Positions 48,274-64,000 of a DNA stretch of 64,000 nt are shown here, one piece after another. The notes below the pieces were generated by a model. It saw nothing but the letters and a program-made list of their open reading frames with translations. It made no database searches and had not been told where the DNA came from. How positions within the stretch are numbered: the first letter of the stretch is position 1; every line of letters starts with the position of its first letter. The DNA is from Natrinema ejinorense (GTDB lineage Archaea; Halobacteriota; Halobacteria; Halobacteriales; Natrialbaceae), in the NCBI RefSeq assembly GCF_002494345.1, contig NZ_NXNI01000001.1, forward strand, positions 3,596,001 to 3,660,000, given 5' to 3'. A program made the position numbers and the translations under genes.

Positions 48274-49263
48274 ATGGCTGCAGACTCAGAAAACCTCACG
48301 CTGGTACAGGCGGTACGGGACGGATTGCACACCGAGATGGAACGCGACGACGACGTCGTCGTCATGGGCGAGGACGTCGGCAAGAACGGCGGCGTCTTCC
48401 GCGCGACCGAAGGGCTCTACGACGAGTTCGGCGAGAACCGGGTCGTCGACACCCCGCTCGCGGAGTCGGGCATCGTCGGGACGGCGATCGGGATGGCGGC
48501 CTACGGGATGCGGCCGGTTCCCGAAATCCAGTTCCTGGGGTTCATCTATCCCGCGTTCGATCAGATCGTCTCCCACGCGGCGCGCCTGCGGACGCGCTCG
48601 CGCGGGCGATTCACGTGTCCGATGGTCATCCGGGCCCCCTACGGCGGGGGCATCCGCGCGCCGGAACACCACTCCGAGTCGACGGAGGCGATGTTCGTCC
48701 ACCAGCCCGGACTCAAGGTCGTCATCCCGTCGACGCCCTCCGACACCAAGGGACTCCTGATCAGCGCGATTCGCAGTCCCGACCCGGTGATCTTCCTCGA
48801 GCCAAAGCTCATCTATCGGGCCTTCCGCGAGGAGGTCCCCGACGAGTCCTACGAGGTGCCGATCGGCGAGGCGGCCGTCCGCCGCGAGGGAAGCGATATC
48901 TCGGTCTACACCTGGGGCGCGATGACCCGACCGACGCTCGAGGCCGCGGAGAACCTCGAAGCAGAAGGGATCGACGCCGAGGTCGTCGACCTGCGGACTC
49001 TCTCGCCGTTAGACGAGGAGACCATCGTCGAGTCCTTCGAGAAGACCGGTCGCGCGGCGGTCGTCCACGAGGCACCCAAGACCGGCGGGCTGGGTGCGGA
49101 GATCACCGCGACCTTACAGGAAGAAGCGCTCCTCTATCAGGAAGCGCCGGTGGAGCGTATCACGGGTTTCGACACGCCGTTCCCGTTGTACGCGCTCGAG
49201 GACTACTACCTGCCCGAGGCGGCACGCATCGAGGACGGGATTCGAGACGCCGTGGAGTTCTAA
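48274..49263 (+). CDS. pdhB: 2-oxoacid dehydrogenase E1 component, beta subunit
   Basis: The 329-residue transketolase-like subunit has VMGEDVGKNGGVFRATEGLY, DTPLAESGIVGTAIGMAAYG, VPEIQF-like PVPEIQFLGFIYPAFDQIVS and the C-terminal DLRTLSPLDEETIVESFEKT. It completes the E1 heterotetramer. It begins four bases after the E1 alpha stop and ends one base before the E2 start, a tight operon. Confidence 0.94.
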   Translation: MAADSENLTLVQAVRDGLHTEMERDDDVVVMGEDVGKNGGVFRATEGLYDEFGENRVVDTPLAESGIVGTAIGMAAYGMRPVPEIQFLGFIYPAFDQIVSHAARLRTRSRGRFTCPMVIRAPYGGGIRAPEHHSESTEAMFVHQPGLKVVIPSTPSDTKGLLISAIRSPDPVIFLEPKLIYRAFREEVPDESYEVPIGEAAVRREGSDISVYTWGAMTRPTLEAAENLEAEGIDAEVVDLRTLSPLDEETIVESFEKTGRAAVVHEAPKTGGLGAEITATLQEEALLYQEAPVERITGFDTPFPLYALEDYYLPEAARIEDGIRDAVEF

Positions 49264-49264
49264 C

Positions 49265-50923
49265 ATGGTCAGAGAGTTCGAACTGCCGGACGTCGGCGAG
49301 GGAGTCGCGGAGGGCGAACTGGTCTCGTGGCTGGTCGAGGCGGGCGACGAGGTCACGGAGGACCAGCCGGTCGCGGAGGTCGAGACGGACAAGGCCCTCG
49401 TGGAGGTTCCCGCGCCGGTCGACGGCACCGTCCGCGAGTTACACGTCGAGGAAGGCGAGGTCGTCCCGGTCGGGACCGTGATCATCTCGTTCGACGTAGA
49501 GGGCGAGGAGAGCGAGGCACCGCGCGCCTCGGAAAACGCAAACGGCGAAGCCGTGAGCGAGGGCGCTGCGGCGCCGACCGAATCGGAGCAGGAGACGACG
49601 AGCGAACCCGCCGGCGACCCCGGCGCGACCGGGGCCGACACCGAGGCGGTCGCACCGCCGGACGATCGCGTCTTCGCTCCGCCGCGCGTGCGCCGCATGG
49701 CTCGCGAGGAGGGAGTCGACCTCTCGAGGATCCAGGGGAGCGGCCCCGGCGGCCGAATCACTGCGGCCGACGTGCAGGCGGCGACGGGCGACTCCAGCGG
49801 CGAACCGGCAGGGTCGCAGTCACAGAGCGCCGGCGCGGCGGCAAGCGAGGCCGCATCCGGGACGGCCGATTCGACCGGCCGCAGCGCTGGTGCCAGTGCC
49901 GCCGAGGAGACGACCCCCGAGGACGCGACTGCGTCCTCGAGCACCGGGCGACCCGAGACGCCGACGCGGGTCGAGTCGGCCGACCGCGAGCGGACGCTGG
50001 CCGCGCCGGCGACCCGACGAATCGCCCAGGAGGAAGGCGTCGACATCGACGCCGTCCCGGCGACCGAGGAGCGCGACGGTGAGGCGTTCGTCACGCCGGA
50101 AGCGATCCAGGAGTACGCCGACGCCCAGCGACAGGCCCAGGAAGCCGACAGGGAGGCGGTCGAGGCCGGCGAATCGGTCGGTACGAAAGGGGCCCAGTTC
50201 GCCGAGGGCGAGCGCGAACGCCGCGAGCCGTTCACGGGTGTGCGCAAGACGATCGCCGACGCGATGGTCGAGTCCAAGTACAGCGCGCCCCACGTCACTC
50301 ACCACGACGAGGTTGACGTGACTGAACTCGTCGCGGCCCGCGAGGACCTCAAACCGCGCGCCGAGGAACGGGGCATCCGGCTGACCTACATGCCGTTCAT
50401 CATGAAGGCCGTCGTCGCGGCGCTGAAAGAGTACCCCGAGATGAACGCGGTCATCGACGAGGAAAACGAGGAGATCGTCTACCGCGATTACTACAACATC
50501 GGGGTCGCCACCGCGACCGATGTCGGGCTGATGGTACCGGTCGTCGAAGACGCGGATCGGAAGGGGCTGTTACAGCTCTCCTCGGAGATGAACGAGGTCG
50601 TCCAGAAGGCTCGCGACCGGACGATTAGCCCCGACGAACTCCGAGGGTCGACGTTCACGATCACCAACGTCGGGGGCATCGGCGGCGAGTACGCGACGCC
50701 GATCATCAACTACCCCGAGGCGGGAATCCTCGCGATCGGCGAAATCAAGCGCAAACCGCGCGTGGTAACCGACGAAAACGGCTCCGAGTCGATCGAACCG
50801 CGATCCGTGCTGACCCTCTCGCTGTCGTTCGATCACCGGCTGATCGACGGGGCCGTCGGTGCAGCGTTTACGAACACGGTCATGGAGTACCTCGAGAACC
50901 CGAGCCTCCTCTTGCTCGAGTGA
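49265..50923 (+). CDS. pdhC: 2-oxoacid dehydrogenase E2 component (dihydrolipoyl acyltransferase)
   Basis: The 552-residue E2 has one N-terminal lipoyl domain (VETDKALVEVP, lipoylated Lys43), a long Ala/Glu/Ser/Thr-rich linker, two segments that look like peripheral-subunit binding domains (FAPPRVRRMAREEGVDLSRI then GSGPGGRITAADV, and APATRRIAQEEGVDIDAV), and the catalytic domain ending in FDHRLIDGAVGAAF with the HxxxDG active site. It transfers the acyl group to CoA. No E3 gene follows; the next gene is convergent and belongs to the CIS locus. Confidence 0.93.
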   Translation: MVREFELPDVGEGVAEGELVSWLVEAGDEVTEDQPVAEVETDKALVEVPAPVDGTVRELHVEEGEVVPVGTVIISFDVEGEESEAPRASENANGEAVSEGAAAPTESEQETTSEPAGDPGATGADTEAVAPPDDRVFAPPRVRRMAREEGVDLSRIQGSGPGGRITAADVQAATGDSSGEPAGSQSQSAGAAASEAASGTADSTGRSAGASAAEETTPEDATASSSTGRPETPTRVESADRERTLAAPATRRIAQEEGVDIDAVPATEERDGEAFVTPEAIQEYADAQRQAQEADREAVEAGESVGTKGAQFAEGERERREPFTGVRKTIADAMVESKYSAPHVTHHDEVDVTELVAAREDLKPRAEERGIRLTYMPFIMKAVVAALKEYPEMNAVIDEENEEIVYRDYYNIGVATATDVGLMVPVVEDADRKGLLQLSSEMNEVVQKARDRTISPDELRGSTFTITNVGGIGGEYATPIINYPEAGILAIGEIKRKPRVVTDENGSESIEPRSVLTLSLSFDHRLIDGAVGAAFTNTVMEYLENPSLLLLE

Positions 50924-51039: not shown

Positions 51040-52287
51040 TCACTCGTTTGGAACGACGTCGACGAGCACGTCCAGCGAGTCGGCGGCCTCGCAGACCCGA
51101 TCCTGGATCTCGGCCAACTCGAGGACGGGGTCATCGTTCTCGAGTGCCGACTGGAGGTCGGAGACGGATTTGAGGTACCGTTCGAGGCTGGCTTCGGTCG
51201 TCGCACCCTCGAGATGGTCACCGAGGTCTATCAGGTGCTCGAGGATCTCCTGGAGGTGTCGGCGGTACGCGCCCTCGCTGTCACAGATCTCCTCGCCGTT
51301 CGTGCGGGAGACGGTGGCGATTTCGCGGGCGAGCCGACTCCCCTCGCGTGTCTGCTGTGCTAACCGATCGGCCAACTCGTCGAAGAACCGGGCTCTGTCC
51401 TTGAGCGTCTTCCGCATGACGTACTGGGTGAGCGCGGTCTGGTCCCGTTTGACCCGTCCCAGCTCGGTCTCCAGGGCGTCGAGTCGATCGGTGATCTCCC
51501 CGATACCGTCCGGGATGTCGGGGGGCTCCCGTTCGACCGGCGTCCGATGTGGATTGTCGGTGTCGGTGACGTGGTCGATGATCGTCGCGAAGAGCAGGTC
51601 GTGATCGTAGGCGAACTCCCGTGGAGCCGGCTCCGTGGATTCCGTCCAGACGCCGTCGGGCGTCCGTTCGAACGAGCCCAGGAAGACTGGCGTCTCCGTT
51701 TTAGGGGGCATCGAGGACCGGTACTGGTCGTGATACCGCTCGAGGAGCTGGCGGGATATGGTTTCGGCGTCGGGACCGTCGCTCCCGACGGACGGAATCT
51801 CGACGTCCGGCAGCTGTGGTCGCTCGTCTTCGGCCGTCTCTCGATACGTCAGTTCGAAGACCTCGACGGTCCGGTTCGACGTCGACTCCGCGTCGATGGC
51901 GTCGTCCGTGTTCGGGACGGGAACGGTTTCCAGCGAGACCTCCTCGTACTCGATATAGAGCGATAGCTCGTTCGCCGAGGGACGCGGGAGCGACTTCGTC
52001 GTCACCTGTTCGACGACGATGGGACGACCACGCCCGTCCAGCGCCAACCCCGGTTCGATCGTCACCTCGAGTCCGTCGTCGGTCTCGTCGATCGATCGAA
52101 TCTCGAGGCCGTGGACGATTCCGCTCCCAACCACGAACCGGGAGAGGGCGTGCAATCGCTCGGCGTGATACTCCTGTTCCGCTTCCATATCGCGGGGGGT
52201 CATCAGTTTCCCGCTGAAGAACCGATTCTTCCGAAACTGCGATAGATCGCCCCGCTCCCCCGTACTGTGGTCCGAGTCCTGGGCCAT
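51040..52287 (-). CDS. CIS-associated protein with RFFSGKLMTPRD motif
   Basis: The 415-residue protein opens with FRKNRFFSGKLMTPRDMEAE then QEYHAERLHALSRFVVGSGI and VHGLEIRS. This N-terminal signature (FFxGKxLxxxD, then a helix and GIVxGL) occurs in proteins of bacterial extracellular contractile injection loci, as far as I recall. The middle is beta-rich (GLEVTIEPGLALDGRGRPIV), and the C-terminal half (residues ~265-410) is helical with heptad-like runs (ITDRLDALETELGRVKRDQT). It could be a baseplate or fibre-attachment component. It is transcribed divergently from the sheath gene across a 320-base control region and convergently with the E2 gene. Confidence 0.65.
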   Translation of the reverse strand: MAQDSDHSTGERGDLSQFRKNRFFSGKLMTPRDMEAEQEYHAERLHALSRFVVGSGIVHGLEIRSIDETDDGLEVTIEPGLALDGRGRPIVVEQVTTKSLPRPSANELSLYIEYEEVSLETVPVPNTDDAIDAESTSNRTVEVFELTYRETAEDERPQLPDVEIPSVGSDGPDAETISRQLLERYHDQYRSSMPPKTETPVFLGSFERTPDGVWTESTEPAPREFAYDHDLLFATIIDHVTDTDNPHRTPVEREPPDIPDGIGEITDRLDALETELGRVKRDQTALTQYVMRKTLKDRARFFDELADRLAQQTREGSRLAREIATVSRTNGEEICDSEGAYRRHLQEILEHLIDLGDHLEGATTEASLERYLKSVSDLQSALENDDPVLELAEIQDRVCEAADSLDVLVDVVPNE

Positions 52288-52607
52288 GGCGTAGTGGTGT
52301 TGTTTATTGCGCCGCTATTCCATTTAATTATGTCTATTTCCGGAACTGGGTATCACCCGTGACCGCGAGCGAACGCTTCCGGTAACCAGGGTGGTCTCCG
52401 GCCGGTGTCGCTCGCGTGCGGTGGCGTCACCCGATCCAGTCTCAGCCGACTCGGTCGCAATTTAGACTCGATCTAAACAGAACTAACCTACTACGACAAA
52501 TAATATATCCATTTCTAGTTGATTTCAGATCCGGCTAAGGAATAAGTTTTATATCACTTGTGTATAAATACAGTACTGCTATACCAGCGATTGGAGGAAC
52601 GACATCA
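52288..52607. promoter_or_regulatory. Divergent promoter region of the contractile injection locus
   Basis: The gap between the RFFSGK-protein gene and the sheath gene is AT-rich for this genome from 52457 on. TTTAGA (52461-52466) and TCTAAA (52472-52477) form an inverted repeat with a five-base centre. TATA-like cores lie at 52500-52508 (AATAATATA) and 52547-52553 (TTTTATA). A purine-rich GGAGGAAC at 52593-52600, 8-15 bases before the ATG at 52608, is a good Shine-Dalgarno sequence, unusual in a genome where most starts look leaderless. Confidence 0.55.
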
Positions 52608-54347
52608 ATGCCAGAGTACCTATCACCAGGCGTGTACGTCGAAGAGGTCGACAGCGGTACCAAATCCGTCGAAGGAGTCAGCACCAGTACCGCTGGCTTC
52701 CTCGGCGAAACGGAGCGGGGTCCCGTCGAACCGAAGCTCATCACGAGCTTCGCCGAGTTCAAACGAACGTTCGGCTCGAGCCCGCAGTCGTCGGATCTCG
52801 ACGTGGCCGTGGACGGCTTCTTCAAGAACGGGGGGAGTCGCTGTTACGTCGGTCGCGTTGCAGCCGCCGACGCGACCGACGTCGCGACGACGACGCTCGT
52901 CGACGAGGATCGAAACGACGTTCTCAAAGTCGAAGCGACCGGTCCGGGCCAGTGGGGCTGTTCGGTCGCCGCGATCGTCGAGGACGGACCGCTCTACGAG
53001 GAGGGAGAAAACGAGTACTTCAAGCTGACGCTGCGATACTGGTCCTGTGACATCGAGGAGGTCAGCAAACCCACCTCCGACCAGCCCGACCCGGCTCCCG
53101 ACGTGGAAGAAGTCTACGAGGACATGTCGGCCGATCCGGAGTCCAGCAAGTTCTACGAGAAACAGATCCCGGGCTCTGCGCTCGTCGATCTCGAACAGCT
53201 CGGAGCCGGACGACCCGCCGAAGGGCTCTCCTGGCTGTCGCGAGACGTCCCCGAGGAGTACTCCGACGGCGGACTACTCCAGCTCGACGGCGAATCGGAG
53301 ACTGCAGCCTACATCCCGGATGATCTCGAGGATCGAGCGTACAACGAGCTCCAGGGAATCGCCGAGCCGTTCGAGATCGACGCCTCTCAGTCCCAGGACG
53401 ATCTCCAGGCGGATCTCGAGGCAGTTCGCGACGGCGAGTTGGAGGTCGACGTCGACGTCGTCTCCGATCTCTCGCAGAAACCCGAAAACGAGGAGGTAAC
53501 GCTCAGCGACTACGAGGGCGTCAACAAGCCCGGTATGCGGACCGGTCTCTCGGCGTTCCGGGAACTCGATGGCGTCTCGCTCATGTGTATTCCCGACGAG
53601 AACGATATCGAAGGGCTCACCGAGGCCCTCGTCGCCCACTGTGAGAACATGGGCGAGCGGTTTGCGGTCCTACAGGCACCGCAGAACGCGGGAGCGATCT
53701 CGGATATGGAGACGCCGGTCGACTCCTCCTATGCTGCCTACTACTATCCGTGGATCGAGACGAAGGATCCGTTCACTAACCGGAAGAAGCTCGTTCCGCC
53801 GGGCGGTCACATCACCGGAATCTTCGCCCGCAGCGACGCCGAACACGGCGTCCACAAGGCACCCGCGAACGAAGTCGTGCGCGGTATTCTCGGCGTGCAA
53901 CACAACATCACGAAAGGCGAACAGGACATCCTCAATCCGCGGGGCGTCAACTGCATTCGGAGCTTCCAGGGCCGCGGAATCCGTCTCTGGGGCGCTCGAA
54001 CCGCATCCAGCGATCCGTCCTGGAAGTACGTGAACGTCCGACGGCTGTTCCTCTACATCGAGCAGTCGATCGACGAAGGCACCCAGTGGGCGGTCTTCGA
54101 ACCCAACGACGAGGACCTGTGGGCCCGCGTGCGCCAGTCGGCGGAGAACTTCCTGACGACGGTTTGGCGAGACGGCGGCCTCCAGGGCAGCACCGCCGAC
54201 GAAGCGTTCTACGTCAAGTGCGGCGAGGAAACGATGACACAGGACGACATCGACAACGGTCGCCTCATCGTCGAGATCGGTATCGCGCCGGTCAAGCCTG
54301 CCGAGTTCGTCGTCTTCCGGATCAGCCAGGACGCCGGCGACGCGTAA
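52608..54347 (+). CDS. Contractile tail sheath protein of a CIS
   Basis: The 579-residue protein begins YLSPGVYVEEVDSGTKSVEG then VSTSTAGFLGETERGP, the standard sheath N terminus, and has a tail-sheath C-terminal domain (KGEQDILNPRGVNCIRSFQG then RGIRLWGARTASSDPSWKYV and NVRRLFLYIEQSIDEGTQWA). Residues ~145-310 form an acidic insertion domain that would face outward on the particle. Sheath monomers polymerise around the tube and contract to drive it through a membrane. There is one sheath gene, where Afp/PVC loci have several. The ATG at 52608 has a clear ribosome-binding site. Confidence 0.93.
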   Translation: MPEYLSPGVYVEEVDSGTKSVEGVSTSTAGFLGETERGPVEPKLITSFAEFKRTFGSSPQSSDLDVAVDGFFKNGGSRCYVGRVAAADATDVATTTLVDEDRNDVLKVEATGPGQWGCSVAAIVEDGPLYEEGENEYFKLTLRYWSCDIEEVSKPTSDQPDPAPDVEEVYEDMSADPESSKFYEKQIPGSALVDLEQLGAGRPAEGLSWLSRDVPEEYSDGGLLQLDGESETAAYIPDDLEDRAYNELQGIAEPFEIDASQSQDDLQADLEAVRDGELEVDVDVVSDLSQKPENEEVTLSDYEGVNKPGMRTGLSAFRELDGVSLMCIPDENDIEGLTEALVAHCENMGERFAVLQAPQNAGAISDMETPVDSSYAAYYYPWIETKDPFTNRKKLVPPGGHITGIFARSDAEHGVHKAPANEVVRGILGVQHNITKGEQDILNPRGVNCIRSFQGRGIRLWGARTASSDPSWKYVNVRRLFLYIEQSIDEGTQWAVFEPNDEDLWARVRQSAENFLTTVWRDGGLQGSTADEAFYVKCGEETMTQDDIDNGRLIVEIGIAPVKPAEFVVFRISQDAGDA

Positions 54348-54393
54348 CACCGCCCACGCACCGTTTCCGACTATCACCTAACCCGATACGATA

Positions 54394-54852
54394 ATGCCAG
54401 ACTCACACGGACCACTCCGACAAACCGAATTCAAGGTCGAACTCGACGGCGTCGGCATCCCCGGCTTCGTCGAGATCGAACTGCCAGCGATGCGAACCGA
54501 ACAGGTCGAATACCGCGAAGGCAACGATCCGTCGCACAATCGAAAGCTCTGGGGCGACACCCAGTACGACGATCTCATCCTCGTTCGTGGGGCCAACGAG
54601 AAAAACAAAGCACTCTACGACTGGCGGAAATCCGTCAACGAAGGGAAGATGGACGACGGTGGCCGGAAGAACATCGCCGTCATCGTCATGAACGAGGTCG
54701 GTGACTCGGTCCTCCGATTCGAGTTCACGAAGGCGTGGATCAAGGAATACCGACCACCAACGCTCAACTCCCACGGCGGCGGCGGCCAGGGGAACCTCGC
54801 CACCGAGGAGTACGTCATCACGTTCGACGAGATGGAACGGAAGAACGTATGA
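54394..54852 (+). CDS. CIS inner tube protein 1 (gp19/T4-like)
   Basis: The 152-residue protein has the gp19-type fold pattern: TEFKVELDGVGIPGFVEIEL, QVEYREGNDPSHNRKLWG, DDLILVRGANEKNKALYDWR and FTKAWIKEYRPPTLNSHG, ending EEYVITFDEMERKNV. Tube hexamers stack inside the sheath. It resembles the Afp1/Afp5 group. It follows the sheath gene and overlaps the next small gene by four bases (ATGA). Confidence 0.92.
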   Translation: MPDSHGPLRQTEFKVELDGVGIPGFVEIELPAMRTEQVEYREGNDPSHNRKLWGDTQYDDLILVRGANEKNKALYDWRKSVNEGKMDDGGRKNIAVIVMNEVGDSVLRFEFTKAWIKEYRPPTLNSHGGGGQGNLATEEYVITFDEMERKNV

Positions 54853-55013
54853 CACGACCGTCGAACTCGTCTCCGGACGCGTTCACCGTCCCGCGCCATC
54901 GGTTCGATGCGGAGTGGCGCGTCGACGACGAGGGTGTCCTCCACACCGGCGACTCGGCACCCTTCGCCAACCGCGTCGTCGTCGCCTGTGACAGTGGGGG
55001 GACTCGACCATGA
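54849..55013 (+). CDS. Small protein between tube and chaperone genes (54 residues)
   Basis: This short frame starts at an ATG overlapping the tube gene stop by four bases and ends at a TGA that overlaps the ATG of the next gene (ATGA at 55010). It encodes 54 residues including FTVPRHRFDAEWRVDDEGVL and HTGDSAPFANRVVVACD. The double overlap and G/C-rich third positions argue that it is translated as part of the operon. I do not recognise the family. It could be a small tube- or sheath-capping component. Confidence 0.65.
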   Translation: MTRPSNSSPDAFTVPRHRFDAEWRVDDEGVLHTGDSAPFANRVVVACDSGGTRP

Positions 55014-55570
55014 CCGGGGAGACGCTCCAGACCGAGTTCGAGTTCACCCTCCCACAGGGATACGTCGACGACGACGGTACCCTCCACAAGGAGGGCCGAA
55101 TGCGCCTCGCGACCGCGGCCGACGAAATCGAGCCCCTGCAAAACCCCCGCGTCCAGACGAACTCCTCGTACCTGACGATCGTCTTGCTCTCGCGGGTCGT
55201 GACTGAACTCGGCGACCTCGAGACGATCGATGCAACCGTCATCGAGGAACTGTTCGTCACGGACCTCGAGTACCTGCAGGCGCTATACGAGCGGGTCAAC
55301 AACCAGGGGATGAACGCCGTCGAGACGGCCTGTCCGGACTGCGGCGAGGTCTTCGAGATCGACGCCGAGAGCGGCACGCACGTGACCACCGACGGACCGA
55401 ACGGCGCGATGAATGCCGCCGCCATGGACGCCGGGGGCGCCGGTGTCGGCGGCGACATCGGCGAACTCGGTGGGGCGGAATCAGCGGGATTCGAATCCGC
55501 CGACATGCGTGCAGCCGATACCGAACCGAACGACGGTGAGGGATCGGAGTCGGGAAATCCAGCGGAGTAG
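55010..55570 (+). CDS. CIS tail-assembly chaperone (0-frame product)
   Basis: The 186-residue protein begins TEFEFTLPQGYVDDDGTLHK, then RMRLATAADEIEPLQNPRVQ, SYLTIVLLSRVVTELGDLET and VTDLEYLQALYERVNNQGMN. A CPDCGEVF motif near residue 110 may bind zinc or simply be structural. The start overlaps the previous stop. This pattern is that of the phage-tail assembly proteins of eCIS loci. The last ~60 residues are low-complexity Gly/Ala/Asp/Glu. The stop is a TAG at 55568-55570, ten bases after a slippery heptamer in the correct phase, so part of the product is predicted to be extended in the -1 frame. Confidence 0.85.
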   Translation: MTGETLQTEFEFTLPQGYVDDDGTLHKEGRMRLATAADEIEPLQNPRVQTNSSYLTIVLLSRVVTELGDLETIDATVIEELFVTDLEYLQALYERVNNQGMNAVETACPDCGEVFEIDAESGTHVTTDGPNGAMNAAAMDAGGAGVGGDIGELGGAESAGFESADMRAADTEPNDGEGSESGNPAE

Positions 55571-55590
55571 TCCGGCTGTACGAACCGGAC
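55552..55590 (+). promoter_or_regulatory. Predicted programmed -1 ribosomal frameshift signal
   Basis: The heptamer GGGAAAT at 55552-55558 has the X XXY YYZ form and is in phase with the chaperone frame (codons TCG GGA AAT). GTCCGG (55570-55575) and CCGGAC (55585-55590) form a perfect six-base GC stem with a nine-base loop, starting 11 bases after the heptamer. Slippage by -1 leads into the open frame that ends at 55809. The lambda G/GT tail chaperone uses GGGAAAG, one base different. Confidence 0.75.
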
Positions 55591-55809
55591 CGCCTCTACG
55601 AGGAGGTCGCGTTCGTGGCCTACCACTTCGGGTGGAGCCACGATACGGTATTGAACATGCCCCACTGGGAACGCCAGCGCTGGTGTGAGGAGATCAGCAC
55701 GATCAACGATCGTATGTCCGACTCGCCGTCCGACCAGTCCCGTGGCCGACGCGGACGCGACGGCGCCGGTGGAGGTATCGTGCTCCGGCAACCGCCGGAT
55801 TCCGAGTAA
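55558..55809 (+). CDS. -1 frame extension of the tail-assembly chaperone (DUF6760-like)
   Basis: This frame reads SSGVVRLYEPDRLYEEVAFV then AYHFGWSHDTVLNMPHWERQ and RWCEEISTINDRM. It matches the small eCIS family known to me as DUF6760 (LYEEVAFxAYxFxW and HWERxRWxxEIxxIN). There is no ATG, GTG or TTG between the preceding in-frame stop (55537) and the GTG at 55615, which would cut off the conserved LYEEVAF start. It is therefore most simply made by frameshift at 55552-55558, giving a fusion of about 266 residues with the protein starting at 55010. The C-terminal tail is Asp/Arg/Gly-rich. Confidence 0.75.
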   Translation, partial: SSGVVRLYEPDRLYEEVAFVAYHFGWSHDTVLNMPHWERQRWCEEISTINDRMSDSPSDQSRGRRGRDGAGGGIVLRQPPDSE

Positions 55810-55857
55810 CCACGGCATCCGGCGTTCGGAGACAGTCGAGAACGCAGTAGTGAGACG

Positions 55858-56313
55858 ATGACGACATATACGCACGAAAACGATCCGTACGCACAGTACA
55901 ATTTCGAGGTCGAGGTAGACGGCGAGACCGTCGCCGGGTTCGCCGAGGTCGCCGGAATCACGATGGAACTCGAAACCGTCCAGTACCGCGAGGGGGGCGT
56001 CAACGATCACGTCCATCAGTTACCCGGCCAGTTCGCTCACGCGAATCTCGTCCTTCAACGGGGCCTGACGAAAAACACGACCTTCTGGGAGTGGATCCAG
56101 ACGGTCATGAGCGGCACCATCTCTCGGAAGAACATCGTCGTCAAAGTAAAAGACAGCTTCAAAGGCGAGAGTCAGTGGGGGTGGGAATTCGTGAACGCGT
56201 ATCCGACGAAATGGTCCGGTCCGGACCTGGTCAGCAACGAACGGGGCATGGCGATCGAGTCGATCGAGTTGGCATACGAGCGGTTCTCCAAGATGTCCGG
56301 TATGCCGGAGTAA
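55858..56313 (+). CDS. CIS inner tube protein 2 (gp19-like)
   Basis: The 151-residue protein has the second-tube pattern: YAQYNFEVEVDGETVAGFAE, TVQYREGGVNDHVHQLPGQF, LVLQRGLTKNTTFWEWIQTV and WEFVNAYPTKWSGPDLVSNE, ending AYERFSKMSGMP. In Afp-like particles a second tube protein forms the ring that joins the tube to the hub. It starts 48 bases after the chaperone extension on the same strand. Confidence 0.92.
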   Translation: MTTYTHENDPYAQYNFEVEVDGETVAGFAEVAGITMELETVQYREGGVNDHVHQLPGQFAHANLVLQRGLTKNTTFWEWIQTVMSGTISRKNIVVKVKDSFKGESQWGWEFVNAYPTKWSGPDLVSNERGMAIESIELAYERFSKMSGMPE

Positions 56314-56405
56314 CGGTCACGAATACCCGTTCCGACCTCGATACTCTTTCAGGAAACAGGATACCTTATCTTTAAGAGCATTCGACAAACATCATACGAA
56401 AAACT

Positions 56406-56513
56406 ATGCGCAATCGATCCGAACCGGAGACGAAACAACCGATCCGAGCGGGTGCCATCGTCGCTGGTCGACCGGCGTTCGAGGAGGGGGCTGACGGGGT
56501 GGGGCTGCGATGA
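56406..56513 (+). CDS. Short leader ORF coupled to the CIS membrane protein (35 residues)
   Basis: The ATG at 56406 lies 27-33 bases after a TTTAAGA element (56373-56379), as in a leaderless transcript. It encodes 35 residues (MRNRSEPETKQPIRAGAIVA, then GRPAFEEG). Its TGA overlaps the ATG of the membrane protein gene (ATGA at 56510). It may be a translated leader that couples translation, or a very small CIS component. The sequence is not recognised. Confidence 0.5.
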   Translation: MRNRSEPETKQPIRAGAIVAGRPAFEEGADGVGLR

Positions 56514-57637
56514 GGCGCGTCGCGTCGAAGGCGACAAAAACCGTCAAAAAGAAAGTCTCACCGGTCTTGCGGCCGCTGGCCGCGGCACTGATTTTCGCGG
56601 TGGTTGTGACTGCCGTGGCCGTCGTGACGGGGCTCGTCGACTACGTCCCGGAGTCAACCGTTCCCGTCACGGACTGGGTACTCTCCCCGCGAGTCGTTCT
56701 GTTGATCACGGTGTTCGTCCTCGCGGTCGTCGTGATCGGCGTCCGTCTGTTGTATCTCCAGTACAAGGATGCGATCGCCGATCAGTGGGATCAGCTGTCG
56801 ATCTGGGCACAGGCGACGATCGCGGGCGCGGTCTGTGGCCTACTCGTCGCGACCGGACTCGGTATCGCGACCCTCGTGGGGGTCGTTTCCCCGGTGTCCG
56901 TTCTCGCCGGGTCGCTGATCGCGTGGCCGGTCGCGACCGTCCTTACGCTCCGCCAGCGTCGGGAACCGGATACGGACGACTCTCCGTCCGCGTTACGGTC
57001 GGTACTCATCAGAACCGGCTACGCGCAGGTCAAACATCTCCAGACCCGCACGCTTGCTGGAATCGTCGGCTTCGTCGGCGCGGTTCTCGCGAGCGTCGGG
57101 ACCCGTGCACTCGTTTCGTGGCTGCCGTGGTTCGATGGAACGCTCACCCAACTCCAGACGGTCGTCCTCGCGGCAGTCCTGTGGCTGATCGCGACGGTGC
57201 TCGTCTACAACCGCTACGAGTCCACGATCAGCGACCGGACGGACCTCCGAATCGTGGCGGTCTCGAGGTTGGAGTCACGGGACGGCCGCGAACTGATGGT
57301 CAAAAACACCGGCATTACCCCCGTCGAACTGACGCAGGCGAAGATCCGTGATACGAAACACGACCTCTATCAGTTCGACGTCGGCGTCACGCTCGAGCCC
57401 GGCGAGCGCTGTAGCTTCGAACTCCCGGCGACGTTCCTGCTCGAGTCCAACGAGGCGGCGATGGATCTCCCGCTTGGGTACACGCTCAAACAGGGCGGTG
57501 AGCACCCGATCGTCTACACGCGGACCGGCGATCAGTTCGTCCTGCAGGGGAGCAGCGACGCCCTCGATCGCGAGTCGGTCCGCGCCGGGACCCGATCGAC
57601 GATCGGGATCGGTGCCGAGCCGACGCCACAGGAGTAG
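56510..57637 (+). CDS. Membrane protein inside the CIS locus, with C-terminal beta domain
   Basis: The 375-residue protein has a Lys/Arg-rich N terminus (SKATKTVKKKVSPVLRPL) and six hydrophobic segments, such as LIFAVVVTAVAVVTGLV, VVLLITVFVLAVVVIGVRLL, ATIAGAVCGLLVATGLGIAT, GIVGFVGAVLASVGTRALV and TVVLAAVLWLIATVLVY. From residue ~240 it has a soluble Ig-like part (LRIVAVSRLESRDGRELMVK then NTGITPVELTQAKIRDT). No known Afp/PVC core protein has this layout. A membrane protein within the operon suggests an anchor for the particle, or an export/docking or immunity factor. That is inference. Confidence 0.7.
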   Translation: MRRVASKATKTVKKKVSPVLRPLAAALIFAVVVTAVAVVTGLVDYVPESTVPVTDWVLSPRVVLLITVFVLAVVVIGVRLLYLQYKDAIADQWDQLSIWAQATIAGAVCGLLVATGLGIATLVGVVSPVSVLAGSLIAWPVATVLTLRQRREPDTDDSPSALRSVLIRTGYAQVKHLQTRTLAGIVGFVGAVLASVGTRALVSWLPWFDGTLTQLQTVVLAAVLWLIATVLVYNRYESTISDRTDLRIVAVSRLESRDGRELMVKNTGITPVELTQAKIRDTKHDLYQFDVGVTLEPGERCSFELPATFLLESNEAAMDLPLGYTLKQGGEHPIVYTRTGDQFVLQGSSDALDRESVRAGTRSTIGIGAEPTPQE

Positions 57638-57742
57638 TCGATCCCGGCCCTCGAAAACGGGTGTCTCGTGAGAGAGCGCTCGTTTAGAGCGCCTCTGGCG
57701 CACAAACATTAAGTACTGTCTTTGTAATATCAAAACGAGATC

Positions 57743-57829
57743 GTGTACCGACACGTCGATCCGTCTTTCGAACTGCGAAAGCCCGTCGAATCGTCCCTCG
57801 AGTACCGACAGCGATTCACCGGGCCGTGA
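57743..57829 (+). CDS. Possible 28-residue leader ORF overlapping the giant disordered-protein gene
   Basis: A GTG at 57743 opens a 28-codon frame (YRHVDPSFELRKPVESSLEY then RQRFTGP) whose TGA overlaps the GTG start at 57826 (GTGA). An AT-rich tract lies at 57707-57735. The arrangement copies that of the leader ORF at 56406 before the membrane protein gene. Evidence is only the overlap, codon use and promoter position. Confidence 0.35.
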   Translation: MYRHVDPSFELRKPVESSLEYRQRFTGP

Positions 57830-60800
57830 TCGGGGAGTCTACCGACCTCGATCGCGTGCCGTCGGTACGGCAGATCGGCGTGACCCACCGGGCGGCAGCC
57901 GAGTCGTCGATGGGGGTCGACTCGAGTGGCCCGTCGACGGTTGCTCGCCTCCAGCCCAGCGTCACGGCGATCGCGACGCTGACTCCCGACCGACTGGTCG
58001 GTGGACTCGGCGTCCGGATCGCACGGAGGCGGAGCCCGGTCCAGCTATCGTTTCTCTCGTCCCTCGACGCTCCCCTCGACGACGCGGCGACCGACGAGCC
58101 CGGGGTTTCGATCGTCCCTCCGCCGACGTTCGACCGGTCGACGGATCACGACGATGCGTTTACCTACCGCACGAAATCCGGTCGTTCGGACCGGACCGGA
58201 CCGGCCGATCGATCGTTCGCGACGGCGAACGGATCGCCCTCCCCGCCGTCGACGGAACGGGCGTCGATGACGGCCCATGGGGTTCGATCGGGCGGGCCGA
58301 GTCGTCCCGACCGGTCGCAGTCGTCGGCGCTCGAGGGGACCGCCACCCACGGACAAGCGGCGTCTTCACGAGGAGGCGAGACGCCCAACGGGTCCGATGG
58401 AACGCGGCGACGGGGGGAGCCCGACCCGACGGCTGTCGGTCGAGCACCTGTCGCGACGGGACGGGCCTGGCGAACGCCCGCACGGCGATCGCCCGACCGA
58501 TCCGGATCGAGCAGTACGGGCCGGCTGGGCCGTCTCCAGCGACGCGCCAGCGCGGTTCCGATGGGAGCGGCGGCGACCGGTTCCGACACGGATCGGACAT
58601 CGGCGTTCGAGCCGGGGGCTTCGAGTGCGTCGCCCTCCGGCGTCGGCGATCCGCTCGAACGCGAGACGCCGTCGCTGCTCGTCTCGGAACGGTCGGTCGA
58701 TCGGACCACGTCGGCCGGCTCGATGGCGTCCCGACCGAATCGGACCCACGCTCGAGGGCGATCCCTGCCGACGCTCGTTACCCGGAGTGGGCTACCCACC
58801 GCGGGGACTCGGGGGCCGGAATCCAAGTCACCGGAGACCGTGACACGACGGTCGGGGCAGCCGGTCAAGCACCCCAATGCGGACGGACGGTTCGCGTCGC
58901 CGATCGATCCTCGAACCCGACAGACGGCAAGCGCCTCGTCCACTCGCGGTGTGCAGGCGAATCGCAACGGGGAGCCCACGGAAACCCGTGTCGGGACCGG
59001 TCACGACGGCTCTCCCGCCCTCTCGTCGTCCCGGCCAACCGGGGACGCAACCACGAATGCGGGGGCACACTCGAGCGTGGCGACCTTGGGTGCCGACGTC
59101 GACCGACGAGCGACTCCGAGCGATCCCACCGTCCGGCCGATCGGGATCCGGAGCCGAGAACCGGACCCGATCGGTCGGCACACGCGGACACCGACTTCAC
59201 GGGCAATGGCCCACGGGGGCGGACGGACGCGACACGCGGCCGCCGACTCACACGACGGCACGACGATGCAGTATGCCAGCTCTCGGCGAGTCGACGGGAC
59301 GAACGGGCAGACGGCCGCCCCCACACGGGACGTGGTCGTCGCTCACACCCGGCGCGATCGGACGGACCGGCCACGCAGAACCGGCCACGGCGGGCGAGAT
59401 ACCGACCCGTTCGCCGGCCACACCGACCGCCCGCACGTGCCGACACCACGGCACCGCTCAGTCGAACTCGGAGCCGGCGACGAAACCGACGACCACACCG
59501 GCGAGAGCGCCGGCTTCGATCGTGCGTCCGGTCGATCCCGCCCGACCCGATCGCCCCTTATCGAGTCGATCGGCCGCCGTCGACGACCGCCGCTCACCAC
59601 GGTCACCGATCGGGTTCCGAGACGATCGGCGCTGGCACCGACCGCCTCGACCGTAATCGAGGGGCCGCCAGCGGCCTCGCGGAGCGACTCCTCGTCGATC
59701 GCATCTCGAGTGTCCCACGCGTCGGACCGGGACGGAGCGGTGGCCCGCGACCAGCCGCCTCGAACGCCCCGCTCGTTGCCGTCGATCCCCCCTGTGACGG
59801 TGTCACCGTCGCCCCTCTCACAGCGGACGGCTCCCCAGGCGACGGCCTCACACCCGACAGCGTCGCTGCGACTGCCGACGCCTGCTGGTGACACAGACGA
59901 GCCCGGCGATCGGTCGCCGACGATCGACCGTCGGGACGGCTCCGATTCGGGGCCGATCGCTGGCACCCGAGGCCCTCGCTCACGACGCGGTGCCACGGTC
60001 GAACGGCCGCCCCCATCCGGAACGCCGTCGCCGTTCGAGTCACCTCCCCGTGCGGTCGGCGACGAGTCGACCGCGATCGGGACCGGCGCGAGGCCGTCCG
60101 GGTCGGTCGAGCCGGCGGGATCGGCTATCCGTGCGTTCTCGAGCATCCGGTCGACTGACCACGGACGCTCTCGCGGCGATCGTGGGAGGGAGACGCCGGC
60201 CACCGGTGTTCGCGGGTCGCGGTCGCGGCCTGCCGTGACCAACCGTCGTCCGCCGGCGTCCCGAGTCCTCGATCGTGGCAGTGAGGGCGGTTCCAGCGCC
60301 GTCCCGTTGGGCGACGGGCAGCCGGAACAGTTCGGCAGCCACGGACGCTCGGGCGGTCGGGAGCCGGCGCTCGTCGTTCGGCGCCGGTCGTCTGCGGCGA
60401 CGGTCGCGCCGTCGAACGCGGGGGAACCGACGCCGGCCGACCGGTCGAGTCGCTCGCGTGGGCTATCGTCGACGCGGTCCGATAGCCCACCGTCCCGGCC
60501 GCGCTCTCGACCCGAGAGCGACGGTCCAACTGGACGGTCCGTGGGCCGTCCGGAAACCGACAGCACGACGGAGCGACACACGTCCGAATCGGCCCGCTCG
60601 ACCCGGCTTCGATCGCTGGCCGCCGCCGTCACCTCCCAGTCGGCGGGCGAGCGGCCGGCCGCCGACGCGAATCGACGGCTATCGGGAACTGCCGGCGCGG
60701 AGAGGAGCCCGGTCGGAACGGACGTCCCCTCCGCCCGAACGGGGACGCGGTCGCAGCCAGTGCTGTGGTCGTCACGACCGACGGACCGACCGCGACGAGG

Positions 60801-63525
60801 TGTCGAGACCGGGGTACGTTCCGGAGGGGACGTGAGATCGACCCGGTCGTCGCCACGCGACAGCGTGAACCCGGATGGACTCGACGCACGTGCGGACACG
60901 CCTGACGTCGCGTCTCGACCGGAATCGGCCGACGTTCCGACCGGCGTCCGCGCTTTTGATCGTCGCCGGCCGATCGCAGCGGCCGGATCGCCGGTTCCCA
61001 CCATTACCACGCCACCGACGGTGGCGAGTCGTCGCGGATCCACGATCGCTCACTCGGTCTCGGCGCTCGGTCGCGACACCTCGTCGGCGATCGAGGCCGA
61101 CGCCCCGTCACGTCCTCGGCGACTCGGCGACCCCGAGCCCGAAACGGGACGCGGCGTCGGCCAGGGGGCGCCACGCCGCGATCGATCCGGACCGAACGCG
61201 CTCGAGTCGGCGACCCGACTGTCGGTGCGCAGGACGGCGACCGAACGTTCGTCGCCAGAGTCGACCCTGGCGACCGCAACGACCGGATCGAAACCGATCC
61301 GGCGGCCGTCGGAGTTTCCAGCCTCGAGTCGCGGGCGCGAATCGAGCGGGGAGCGGCGGCGTCGGAAGCGACGTTCCGAGCCCGGCCGATCGCGCTCCCG
61401 TCGGACCGACCCGACGACCCGGAGAGAGCGCCCGTCGTGGACGGAACGGGAGCGACCGGGGACGACCCGATCGCCGACACACGACGACCCGTCACTGCGA
61501 TCCGACTCGAGGGCTCCCTCGGCGGTCGGTTCGGATTCGGTCTCGATGGCATCACGGCCGATAGCTGATCCGCGTTCGGGGTCGAGTACGGTCGCGTCGC
61601 CCCCCTCGAGACCGCGGGCCGAACGCGGTGGCCTTCCGACCGGTAACGACGAGGCCGAGCGAGCGATGCCGAACGCGATGTCACCGCCGGTGGTGTCGTC
61701 GACCGCAGCCGAATCGCTGGCCCGAGCCACGGCCGCTCGCCCACGGACGGCTCGCTCGGGATCGATCGCCTCGGGAGCCGGAGCGGACGGGTCCCGCCGG
61801 ACGGTTCGCCAGTATCGGCCGTCGACGGTGACTGATTCGCTCGGATCGGGGTCGGTTCCGGCGCGAGACGAGACGCCGTCGACCGCCCCCGAGCGCCGAG
61901 GATCACGGCAGAACGGTCCGAGTGGCTCCGTGGGGACTGCGAGTACGGTGGACCGGCAGCGACCGGGCCGGTCCGACGGGGATCGCCGCCGTGATCGAGT
62001 CGCTCGATCGACGGCCTCCGATTCGCCTTCCACGACGGAGTCGATCACGATCCACCGTCTCTCGACGAGTCAGGAGGGCGGTAGTGGCGGTCCACGCCCG
62101 AGCAGGGGCGAATCCGCTCGAGGCCCGGCCCCACCCACACCCGTCGGAGCGGAGGCGACGACGGCCGGATCCGACACGACCGCGACGGGGAACCCGGACG
62201 CGACCGGGACGGTCGGATCGCCGGGGGCGGCGACGAATCGGGCGCGATGGACGAACCGCTCGCCGCGGACGAGCCACCTGCCGTCGCTTTCGGTTCCCCG
62301 GACGACGGCTCCCCACGCACCCGGCGCGTCGCCGCCGGTTCGTTCGTCGGACCACACCGAGGGCGACGCTGCGAGCGCCGCGGCGACGACCCGCTCGAGT
62401 GTGGCTCGCTCCTCGAGCATCGCGACCGAACCCCGATCGGCGGCGGGGATCGATCGGCGGGCCGATACCGCCCCGTCCCTCGAGCGGACCGTCGTCCGCT
62501 CGGACCGGCGGCCGGTCCAACCGCCGACGCTCGCCGTTCGGTCGGGCTCGTCGACGGAGCGGGTCGACGGGCGGTCGGCGACTGGTAGTCAGCCGTCGAT
62601 CGATCCCGTCGGCTCGGGTCGGGGGCGTATCGCGGCGGCCGTGGATGCGCTCGACGACGGTGACGGCCCCGTCGGTTCCGATGGGGAGGATTCGATCGTA
62701 ACGCCTTCGCTCCGGTCCTCGACCGGAAACGCGGCCGTTATCGGCGGGCAACGGCTCCAGTCTCGTCTCCGTTCGCGAGGGCAGTCGCCGGCGGGTCCCT
62801 CAGTGACTCGATCGGCGGCCGCAACCGAGCGCGGTTGGGATCGGGCGGCTGGGCCCTCGCTCACGGTCCCGACGCGAGCGGACCGGCCGGAACCGACGCC
62901 GGGGACGCCGGGAGAGTCCTCCCGACAGCAGTCGCCGATATCGACCGCGAGCCGGCAGCATAAACCAACAACTAATACCATTGAATCAACAGGGTCTAAC
63001 ACGGGTGTGAACGGGATGCAAACGAGTACAGCGTCGGGGCGTCCATCGCTGACGTACCGGACGACATCGACGGCAGCCCCGACCGTCGATCGGGGCGGAC
63101 CGAATCGTTCGAACGCAGCGTCGCCGCGCCCGACGACCGGGTCGACGGGCGCGTCGCGAAAGCAACATCGCCCACCAGCCGACCGGGTGGCCGAGAGCGA
63201 CGACCGTCCGCAGGCCGGCTCGGGGTCGGGAATCGGTTCGGAGACGAGACCGCCACAGCACGGGCCGTCGCCCGGTCGCGATGCGGGGCGACCGCAGCCG
63301 AGGAATCCACAGCCGTCGTCGGGCGGACCGTCCGGTCGACCGTCGGGTCGCACCACCGGACACGCCCCAGAGTCGGACTCTCACCGGGGGAACCGCTTCG
63401 ATGGCGTCGACGTTTCCTCGCGGACGGACCCGCGCTTCGACGCCGACGTCGATCGGGCCGTCCAGGAGCTTTATCGCAAACTCGAGCGGAAGATCCGGAT
63501 CGAACGCGAACGGAGGGGACTGTAG
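57826..63525 (+). CDS. Giant disordered Arg/Ser/Thr/Pro-rich CIS protein (1,899 residues)
   Basis: An uninterrupted 5.7-kb frame starting at a GTG. Only the first ~90 residues (LQPSVTAIATLTPDRLVGGL, VQLSFLSSLDAP) and the last ~45 look ordered. The rest is Arg, Ser, Thr, Pro, Gly, Asp and Ala, with almost no aromatic residues, few Lys and no Cys. By eye Arg is at least as abundant as Asp plus Glu, unusual in a halophile. The C terminus (DADVDRAVQELYRKLERKIR then IERERRGL) is an amphipathic helix like the C-terminal tails of proteins next to Afp7/LysM hub genes in eCIS loci (from memory). It touches the hub gene directly. Function is unknown: tether, hub-docking linker and nucleic-acid or cargo binding are all possible. 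Confidence 0.75.
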   Translation: MIGESTDLDRVPSVRQIGVTHRAAAESSMGVDSSGPSTVARLQPSVTAIATLTPDRLVGGLGVRIARRRSPVQLSFLSSLDAPLDDAATDEPGVSIVPPPTFDRSTDHDDAFTYRTKSGRSDRTGPADRSFATANGSPSPPSTERASMTAHGVRSGGPSRPDRSQSSALEGTATHGQAASSRGGETPNGSDGTRRRGEPDPTAVGRAPVATGRAWRTPARRSPDRSGSSSTGRLGRLQRRASAVPMGAAATGSDTDRTSAFEPGASSASPSGVGDPLERETPSLLVSERSVDRTTSAGSMASRPNRTHARGRSLPTLVTRSGLPTAGTRGPESKSPETVTRRSGQPVKHPNADGRFASPIDPRTRQTASASSTRGVQANRNGEPTETRVGTGHDGSPALSSSRPTGDATTNAGAHSSVATLGADVDRRATPSDPTVRPIGIRSREPDPIGRHTRTPTSRAMAHGGGRTRHAAADSHDGTTMQYASSRRVDGTNGQTAAPTRDVVVAHTRRDRTDRPRRTGHGGRDTDPFAGHTDRPHVPTPRHRSVELGAGDETDDHTGESAGFDRASGRSRPTRSPLIESIGRRRRPPLTTVTDRVPRRSALAPTASTVIEGPPAASRSDSSSIASRVSHASDRDGAVARDQPPRTPRSLPSIPPVTVSPSPLSQRTAPQATASHPTASLRLPTPAGDTDEPGDRSPTIDRRDGSDSGPIAGTRGPRSRRGATVERPPPSGTPSPFESPPRAVGDESTAIGTGARPSGSVEPAGSAIRAFSSIRSTDHGRSRGDRGRETPATGVRGSRSRPAVTNRRPPASRVLDRGSEGGSSAVPLGDGQPEQFGSHGRSGGREPALVVRRRSSAATVAPSNAGEPTPADRSSRSRGLSSTRSDSPPSRPRSRPESDGPTGRSVGRPETDSTTERHTSESARSTRLRSLAAAVTSQSAGERPAADANRRLSGTAGAERSPVGTDVPSARTGTRSQPVLWSSRPTDRPRRGVETGVRSGGDVRSTRSSPRDSVNPDGLDARADTPDVASRPESADVPTGVRAFDRRRPIAAAGSPVPTITTPPTVASRRGSTIAHSVSALGRDTSSAIEADAPSRPRRLGDPEPETGRGVGQGAPRRDRSGPNALESATRLSVRRTATERSSPESTLATATTGSKPIRRPSEFPASSRGRESSGERRRRKRRSEPGRSRSRRTDPTTRRERPSWTERERPGTTRSPTHDDPSLRSDSRAPSAVGSDSVSMASRPIADPRSGSSTVASPPSRPRAERGGLPTGNDEAERAMPNAMSPPVVSSTAAESLARATAARPRTARSGSIASGAGADGSRRTVRQYRPSTVTDSLGSGSVPARDETPSTAPERRGSRQNGPSGSVGTASTVDRQRPGRSDGDRRRDRVARSTASDSPSTTESITIHRLSTSQEGGSGGPRPSRGESARGPAPPTPVGAEATTAGSDTTATGNPDATGTVGSPGAATNRARWTNRSPRTSHLPSLSVPRTTAPHAPGASPPVRSSDHTEGDAASAAATTRSSVARSSSIATEPRSAAGIDRRADTAPSLERTVVRSDRRPVQPPTLAVRSGSSTERVDGRSATGSQPSIDPVGSGRGRIAAAVDALDDGDGPVGSDGEDSIVTPSLRSSTGNAAVIGGQRLQSRLRSRGQSPAGPSVTRSAAATERGWDRAAGPSLTVPTRADRPEPTPGTPGESSRQQSPISTASRQHKPTTNTIESTGSNTGVNGMQTSTASGRPSLTYRTTSTAAPTVDRGGPNRSNAASPRPTTGSTGASRKQHRPPADRVAESDDRPQAGSGSGIGSETRPPQHGPSPGRDAGRPQPRNPQPSSGGPSGRPSGRTTGHAPESDSHRGNRFDGVDVSSRTDPRFDADVDRAVQELYRKLERKIRIERERRGL

Positions 63526-64000
63526 ATGAGCGGCGGCAAACTCGAGAAAGCCCAGATCATGATTTTGAACGGGAAACAGAAGGGCGACACCATCGAGTGC
63601 AAGTTCAACCCAAACGCCTATACGCTCGAGAAAAGCGTCAACTACGGCGAACTGAAAGCCACCGGCTCGGGGGCGTCGATCATGCAGTTCGTCGACGGGA
63701 ACGCGGAGACGCTGTCGATGGAGCTGTTTTTCGACACTTCCGACCAACTCGACTCGAAGGGGTCGCCCGATCCGTCGAAAGTCGACGTCCGCGAACGATA
63801 CACTAAACACATCGATACGCTCCTCTCCGTCGACGGAGAGCTACACGCACCGCCGGTGTGTCGGTTCGTCTGGGGCGATGGGATCGACTTTACCGCGTTG
63901 CTCCAGCGGGCGAACAAGCAGTTCACGAAGTTCCTGCCAAGCGGCATTCCCGTCCGTGCCCGGGTGAACGTCGTGTTCAAGGAGTACAAGACGGCCGACT
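63526..64000 (+). CDS. Afp7/LysM-type CIS hub protein (partial, runs off the right edge)
   Basis: The first 158 residues are present, starting at an ATG immediately after the giant gene's stop. They read LEKAQIMILNGKQKGDTIEC then KFNPNAYTLEKSVNYGEL, MQFVDGNAETLSMELFFDTS, RYTKHIDTLLSVDGELHAPP and VRARVNVVFKEYKTAD. The FNPxxY start and ELFFDTxD motif identify the tube-capping/hub-proximal family represented by Afp7, which often has a C-terminal LysM domain; that part would be outside. It links the inner tube to the spike. Confidence 0.88.
   Translation, partial: MSGGKLEKAQIMILNGKQKGDTIECKFNPNAYTLEKSVNYGELKATGSGASIMQFVDGNAETLSMELFFDTSDQLDSKGSPDPSKVDVRERYTKHIDTLLSVDGELHAPPVCRFVWGDGIDFTALLQRANKQFTKFLPSGIPVRARVNVVFKEYKTAD

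Follow-up and report, generated by a model that had tools for sequence, protein, structure and literature searches.

The contractile injection system (CIS) gene cluster of Natrinema ejinorense encodes a membrane protein among its structural components, and the question raised by this locus is whether that protein anchors the particle to the archaeal membrane. The window (the whole 64,000-nucleotide stretch analysed here, positions 3,596,001-3,660,000 of the main contig in a genome of 4.48 Mb) contains the following features.

51040-52287, minus strand: 415-aa CIS-associated protein, with homologues in haloarchaeal CIS clusters (both clades) and in Paenibacillus
52560-54347, plus strand: sheath (Cis2); Phage_sheath_1 at E 3e-23, best PDB match 9ezm (H. 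borinquense Cis2)
54394-54852, plus strand: tube protein, gp19-like; PF06841 at E 4.4e-28
55010-55570, plus strand: conserved 186-aa CIS protein, found in both clades and in bacterial relatives
55615-55809, plus strand: DUF6760 protein; PF20546 at E 1.2e-21
55858-56313, plus strand: second tube protein, gp19-like; PF06841 at E 1.8e-41
56371-56376, plus strand: TATA-like element TTTAAG, possible anchor promoter, at the same position in seven Natrinema upstream regions
56406-56513, plus strand: upstream ORF of 35 codons; its stop and the anchor ATG overlap as ATGA
56510-57637, plus strand: putative CIS/T6SS membrane anchor (Hbor_38620-like), 375 aa, from the ORF and homologues in 35 haloarchaeal genomes
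56582-57208, plus strand: six predicted transmembrane helices, from hydropathy and loop charges; also six in the AlphaFold model
57230-57553, plus strand: predicted cytoplasmic Ig/lamin-tail-like beta domain (residues 241-348), from AlphaFold, the LTD profile and structure alignment
57620-57634, plus strand: conserved C-terminal tail PTPQE-COOH, terminating in the family motif Q[DE]
57826-63525, plus strand: 1,899-aa low-complexity R/S/P-rich protein, candidate tape measure, directly before cis7 in haloarchaeal CIS clusters
63526-64000, plus strand, continuing beyond the window end: Cis7 (CIS_tube and LysM); PF19266 at E 9.1e-34 for the whole gene (stretch L004)

The gene block thereby comprises the sheath, two gp19 tube proteins, the DUF6760 protein, the putative anchor, the giant low-complexity protein and Cis7 with its LysM module, followed in L004 by the hub, an OB-fold spike, PAAR, gp25, two Baseplate_J proteins and Tail_P2_I. 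Only one protein of the window cluster, the putative anchor, has two or more predicted helices. Neither the AAA ATPase (Cis15) nor the DUF4255 cap (Cis16) was identified in the cluster (52560-64000 and L004), and their genes may lie elsewhere in the genome; both are annotated in the Haloferax larsenii cluster (L019). The block sits between genes for the pyruvate (2-oxoacid) dehydrogenase E2 (49094-50923) and the E3 dihydrolipoamide dehydrogenase (L004:12183-13715), and the 415-aa protein at its upstream edge is without a confident family.

A first, sequence-only reading had described a six-helix membrane protein within the cluster, starting at position 56406. The protein is real, and six helices and a C-terminal beta sandwich are predicted in it; its start has been corrected, as position 56406 is offset by 104 nt from the anchor frame, and the true coding sequence spans 56510-57637. 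Values of dN/dS between 0.11 and 0.31, obtained against four relatives, indicate that the gene is under purifying selection. The ATG at 56406 belongs to the 35-codon upstream ORF, which lies closely 3' of the promoter-like TATA; similar short ORFs occur in congeners, with weak significance. As a functional leader this ORF is a weak candidate, because ATGA overlaps arise easily.

The supposition that the gene is transcribed with the tube and hub genes was not confirmed. Intergenic gaps of 196 and 188 nt separate the anchor gene from its neighbours on either side, and the TATA-like element (TTTAAG in the window, TTTTAATA in congeners), together with the sequence that follows it, is kept upstream in all seven of the Natrinema sequences compared, in a stretch that is among the most AT-rich of the CIS cluster. 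These gaps and the conserved element suggest that the anchor begins a transcript of its own with the baseplate module, rather than being carried along by the tube genes. Such a promoter, a new detail of this analysis, is likely to exist, and the conserved element speaks in part against the earlier reading, in which a shared promoter had been expected. A scan for sigma-70 promoters and terminators, which does not cover archaeal promoters, yielded nothing above shuffled sequences.

The membrane part of the protein was located by hydropathy to residues 25-43, 62-80, 108-126, 129-147, 184-202 and 215-233. From the basic loops, according to the positive-inside rule, both ends are predicted to be cytoplasmic, and the C-terminal part inside the cell would amount to 142 residues. 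Six hydropathy segments were counted in 23 of 34 homologues (the window protein included), five segments in 5 and seven or eight in 6. An AlphaFold model of the full protein, built on the 34-sequence alignment, has a mean pLDDT of 64.6; its six helices are modelled with moderate confidence, and the C-terminal part is rich in beta structure. A fold search with the full-length model returned weak and mixed matches (e.g., Kir channels, with TM below 0.2), which were disregarded. By sequence, no solved relative was found at E<=1, and no characterised family, including any known channel or holin, was matched at curated cut-offs.

The latter result bears on the idea of a membrane seal or channel for passage of the tube, which would limit damage to the firing cell. 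Such a role would suit a six-helix protein that is firmly linked with membrane-docked particles, but the lack of similarity to known channels and holins at curated cut-offs counts against it. No such seal or channel is known to be needed by bacterial T6SSs and other CISs to puncture membranes, and this role is considered quite improbable.

The C-terminal part holds the Ig-like domain that had been noticed from the sequence. Modelled alone, it gave a mean pLDDT of 80.9 and nine strands, and is predicted to be an Ig/lamin-tail-like beta domain. The lamin tail domain profile (LTD, PF00932) matches 28 of the 34 family members at E<=0.1, with a best E of 3.6e-7, and the window copy scores 20.9 bits, below the Pfam gathering cut-off of 34.3. 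In structure alignments, lamin Ig domains, archaeal FlaF/FlaG and pilus chaperones all scored a Z of ∼7 against the domain, and similarity at this level need not mean more than a shared Ig-like arrangement. Beyond a linker that varies in both length and sequence, the protein ends in the motif Q[DE], which forms the extreme C-terminus in 29 of the 34 homologues, while the last residue is acidic in 32; the set includes several close relatives, and the effective number is therefore smaller. This conserved Q[DE]-COOH tail is a new detail of this analysis.

The distribution of the family was examined in 391 haloarchaeal genomes sampled across the class, which were searched with the anchor family profile and for the sheath. 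The anchor profile matched 37 genomes, of which 35 were clear; the other two were matches of ∼44 residues to the Ig-like part. A sheath was found in 48 genomes, among them all 35 clear anchor carriers, and no clear anchor homologue was detected in any of the 343 sheath-negative genomes, so that the search for homologues away from CIS loci came out in favour of the sequence-only reading. The remaining 13 sheath-positive genomes, which lack the anchor, carry divergent sheaths (best stretch <=440 bits versus the window sheath). The family is consequently restricted both to CIS-bearing genomes and to one of the two haloarchaeal CIS clades (35/35, 0/13, 0/343). In a Cis11 tree of 17 clusters, nine anchor carriers and eight non-carriers were split by a branch with 100/99 support, which repeats, on another set of genomes, the published division of haloarchaeal CISs into 29 versus 12 clusters (PMC11566945).

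No match to the anchor was obtained in the phage records and viral contigs searched, and a phage or viral origin of the gene was rejected on that account. In 227 genomes sampled across the phylum, none outside Halobacteria carried the anchor; the Ig-like part was matched weakly, over a short length, in one haloarchaeon. In one genome, weak matches to this part fall in other ORFs (G427 C5:283578-286070; L065, L068), ∼25 kb from a sheath gene of the anchor-less type, and may represent lamin-tail domains of no relation to the anchor. That the gene encodes an ordinary membrane protein, lying in the cluster by chance, is favoured by the lack of a characterised family matching at curated cut-offs; the survey of 391 genomes contradicts this explanation, however, by the strict co-occurrence with the sheath even where the two genes are unlinked. 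The absences from phages, viral contigs and the rest of the phylum as sampled also count against it, and its likelihood is negligible.

In most carriers the genes follow the order anchor, giant, cis7, cis8a, cis8b, PAAR, gp25 and Cis11, such that the anchor is usually the first gene of the baseplate module. In many genomes the giant-cis7-baseplate module, headed by the anchor, is distant from the sheath and tube genes, and in three genomes (L081, L082, L083) the anchor adjoins the giant on the opposite strand. In two genomes (G089 and G139) anchor and sheath are hundreds of kb apart, the baseplate genes of G089 staying with the anchor, while in a third (G194) the anchor stands alone, with a sheath present yet unlinked. 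That the co-occurrence holds in all three of these genomes supports a role as an anchor. The anchor-less clade displays the same gene order minus the anchor, and no other multi-helix protein was found in 16 of the 17 anchor-less stretches; in the exception (L096), an ORF of 262 aa on the opposite strand has three segments.

Gene order also bears on whether the protein is an immunity factor, guarding the producer from the toxins of its own CIS. T6SS clusters often carry immunity genes, some of whose products reside in membranes. Toxin-immunity pairs are known from H. borinquense as well (PMC11566945). The window protein, however, belongs to a single conserved family located beside structural genes, whereas no variable toxin gene adjoins it, and it is missing from entire CIS lineages. 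An immunity role thus appears highly improbable, and the earlier suggestion that the protein protects the host cell is left without support.

The closest published description is that of Hbor_38620, a protein with six helices and a cytoplasmic domain of ∼150 residues, which has been proposed as the anchor of an archaeal T6SS (Zachs 2024, PMC11566945). By GFP fusion it was located at the cell envelope/membrane, and in cryo-ET the CISs of H. borinquense and H. elongans were seen standing on the cytoplasmic membrane; extended haloarchaeal particles were always seen docked (PMC11566945). Killing by these CISs requires contact and, in H. borinquense, also an intact sheath gene, while anchoring by Hbor_38620 was proposed and not proven (PMC11566945). 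The window protein is likened to Hbor_38620 by this published description, not by sequence: both have six helices and a cytoplasmic domain of about the same size, and both are tied to one haloarchaeal CIS clade and absent from CIS-negative haloarchaea. The arrangement of the genes differs: in H. borinquense and H. elongans the gene is placed upstream of the core cluster, whereas in the window it comes downstream of the sheath and tube genes, with the second tube gene on one side and the giant gene on the other.

The proposed homology draws on the description, on the shared distribution and on elimination in H. larsenii, where the anchor is the only protein of the cluster with more than one segment, a single DUF4157 protein having one and all others none. 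In addition, the window sheath is closest in the PDB to Cis2 of H. borinquense, whose particle has been seen docked on the membrane. Because it fits the published description of Hbor_38620, the window protein is read as its Natrinema counterpart, a membrane anchor that holds the CIS baseplate for outward firing, with a probability of about 0.72. The best reading is that of a docking, and possibly firing, platform for the baseplate, docking itself being putative.

According to this proposal, the six helices would hold the protein in the cytoplasmic membrane with both ends inside; the Ig/lamin-tail-like domain and the flexible, conserved tail would hold the baseplate; and the extended particle would stand on the membrane and fire outward into a touching cell. 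Contact of the Ig-like domain and tail with the baseplate is probable, and we infer that the window protein binds the baseplate. Two points count against the anchor: an anchor protein could not be resolved in the published averages (PMC11566945), and the particles could dock by means of Cis11/12/13 alone. Extensions of Cis11/12/13 in the anchored clade were sought as an alternative anchor and none was evident, the proteins of the other clade tending to be longer. The earlier idea that the particle is anchored to the archaeal membrane is therefore likely for its main part, in view of the docking and envelope location seen in related species (PMC11566945) and the 35/35 co-occurrence; it had already been published in 2024.

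In Gram-negative bacteria, the T6SS uses a multi-protein trans-envelope complex, TssJLM, as the membrane platform for its baseplate. The likeness to the window protein lies in this function, and no homologue of the latter was named as TssJLM in the family scans. In the thylakoid CIS of Anabaena, which likewise has a membrane-anchored baseplate, the anchor is formed by a helix inside the fibre protein Cis13 and an extension of Cis12 (PMC8894136); no such segment is predicted in the Cis13 of H. larsenii.

The Streptomyces protein CisA provides a further comparison, being a CIS-encoded membrane protein that is thought to link the particle with the membrane, is needed for contraction and is found outside the purified complex (PMC12237407). 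By analogy, the window protein might act mainly as a firing trigger or stress sensor that licenses contraction, the particles docking otherwise or transiently; sensing or signalling would be an equally conceivable task for its tail and Ig-like domain. However, extended haloarchaeal particles are always docked, whereas those of Streptomyces are cytoplasmic. The topologies differ as well: CisA has one helix, a disordered cytoplasmic N-terminus and an extracytoplasmic C-terminal domain, and its gene lies downstream of the baseplate genes (PMC12237407), in contrast to the six helices and the C-terminal domain predicted inside in the window protein. A function predominantly as a trigger is thus unlikely, and that of an anchor is preferred.

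The slot directly before cis7 corresponds to the tape-measure position in phage tails. The giant protein occupies this slot in every haloarchaeal cluster in which both genes were located, the anchor-less ones included, and terminates in a conserved helix, ADVDRxVERLYRKLERKxRIERERRG. Its profile was found in 43 of the 391 genomes, all of them sheath-positive, comprising 34 of the 35 genomes with a clear anchor and 9 of the 13 sheath-positive genomes without one. In the anchored clade its open frame spans 1,097-2,388 codons, against 450-639 in anchor-less clusters. Since the latter also fill the slot, with a shorter version of the protein, the giant was rejected as an anchor-specific partner. 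In a Paenibacillus cluster, cis7 is preceded by a 534-codon frame (L089:20532-22136) that weakly matches the C-terminal helix (E 3e-4). A 1,383-codon frame of Streptomyces clavuligerus is a doubtful counterpart, having no codon-position signal.

We hypothesise that this giant disordered protein is a candidate for the "missing" tape measure, a proposal that is new here and is kept hypothetical because its disordered composition is unlike that of the usual, helical tape measures. A tape measure was reported as missing from the CIS clusters of both H. borinquense (PMC11566945) and S. coelicolor (PMC12237407). It is conceivable, though on balance doubtful, that the Ig-like domain with its near-invariant Q[DE]-COOH tail serves as a baseplate docking peptide and that the giant is the missing tape measure, which would be long in the docked clade but short in the anchor-less one.

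The present findings extend the proposed archaeal T6SS anchor to a Natrinema genome. They also enlarge the set of genomes over which its presence and absence split equally cleanly. The conserved C-terminal tail and the Ig-like domain, both open to cutting or mutation, offer a testable handle on docking. Finally, the giant protein provides a tape-measure candidate for clusters that had been reported without one, both in archaea (PMC11566945) and in Streptomyces (PMC12237407).
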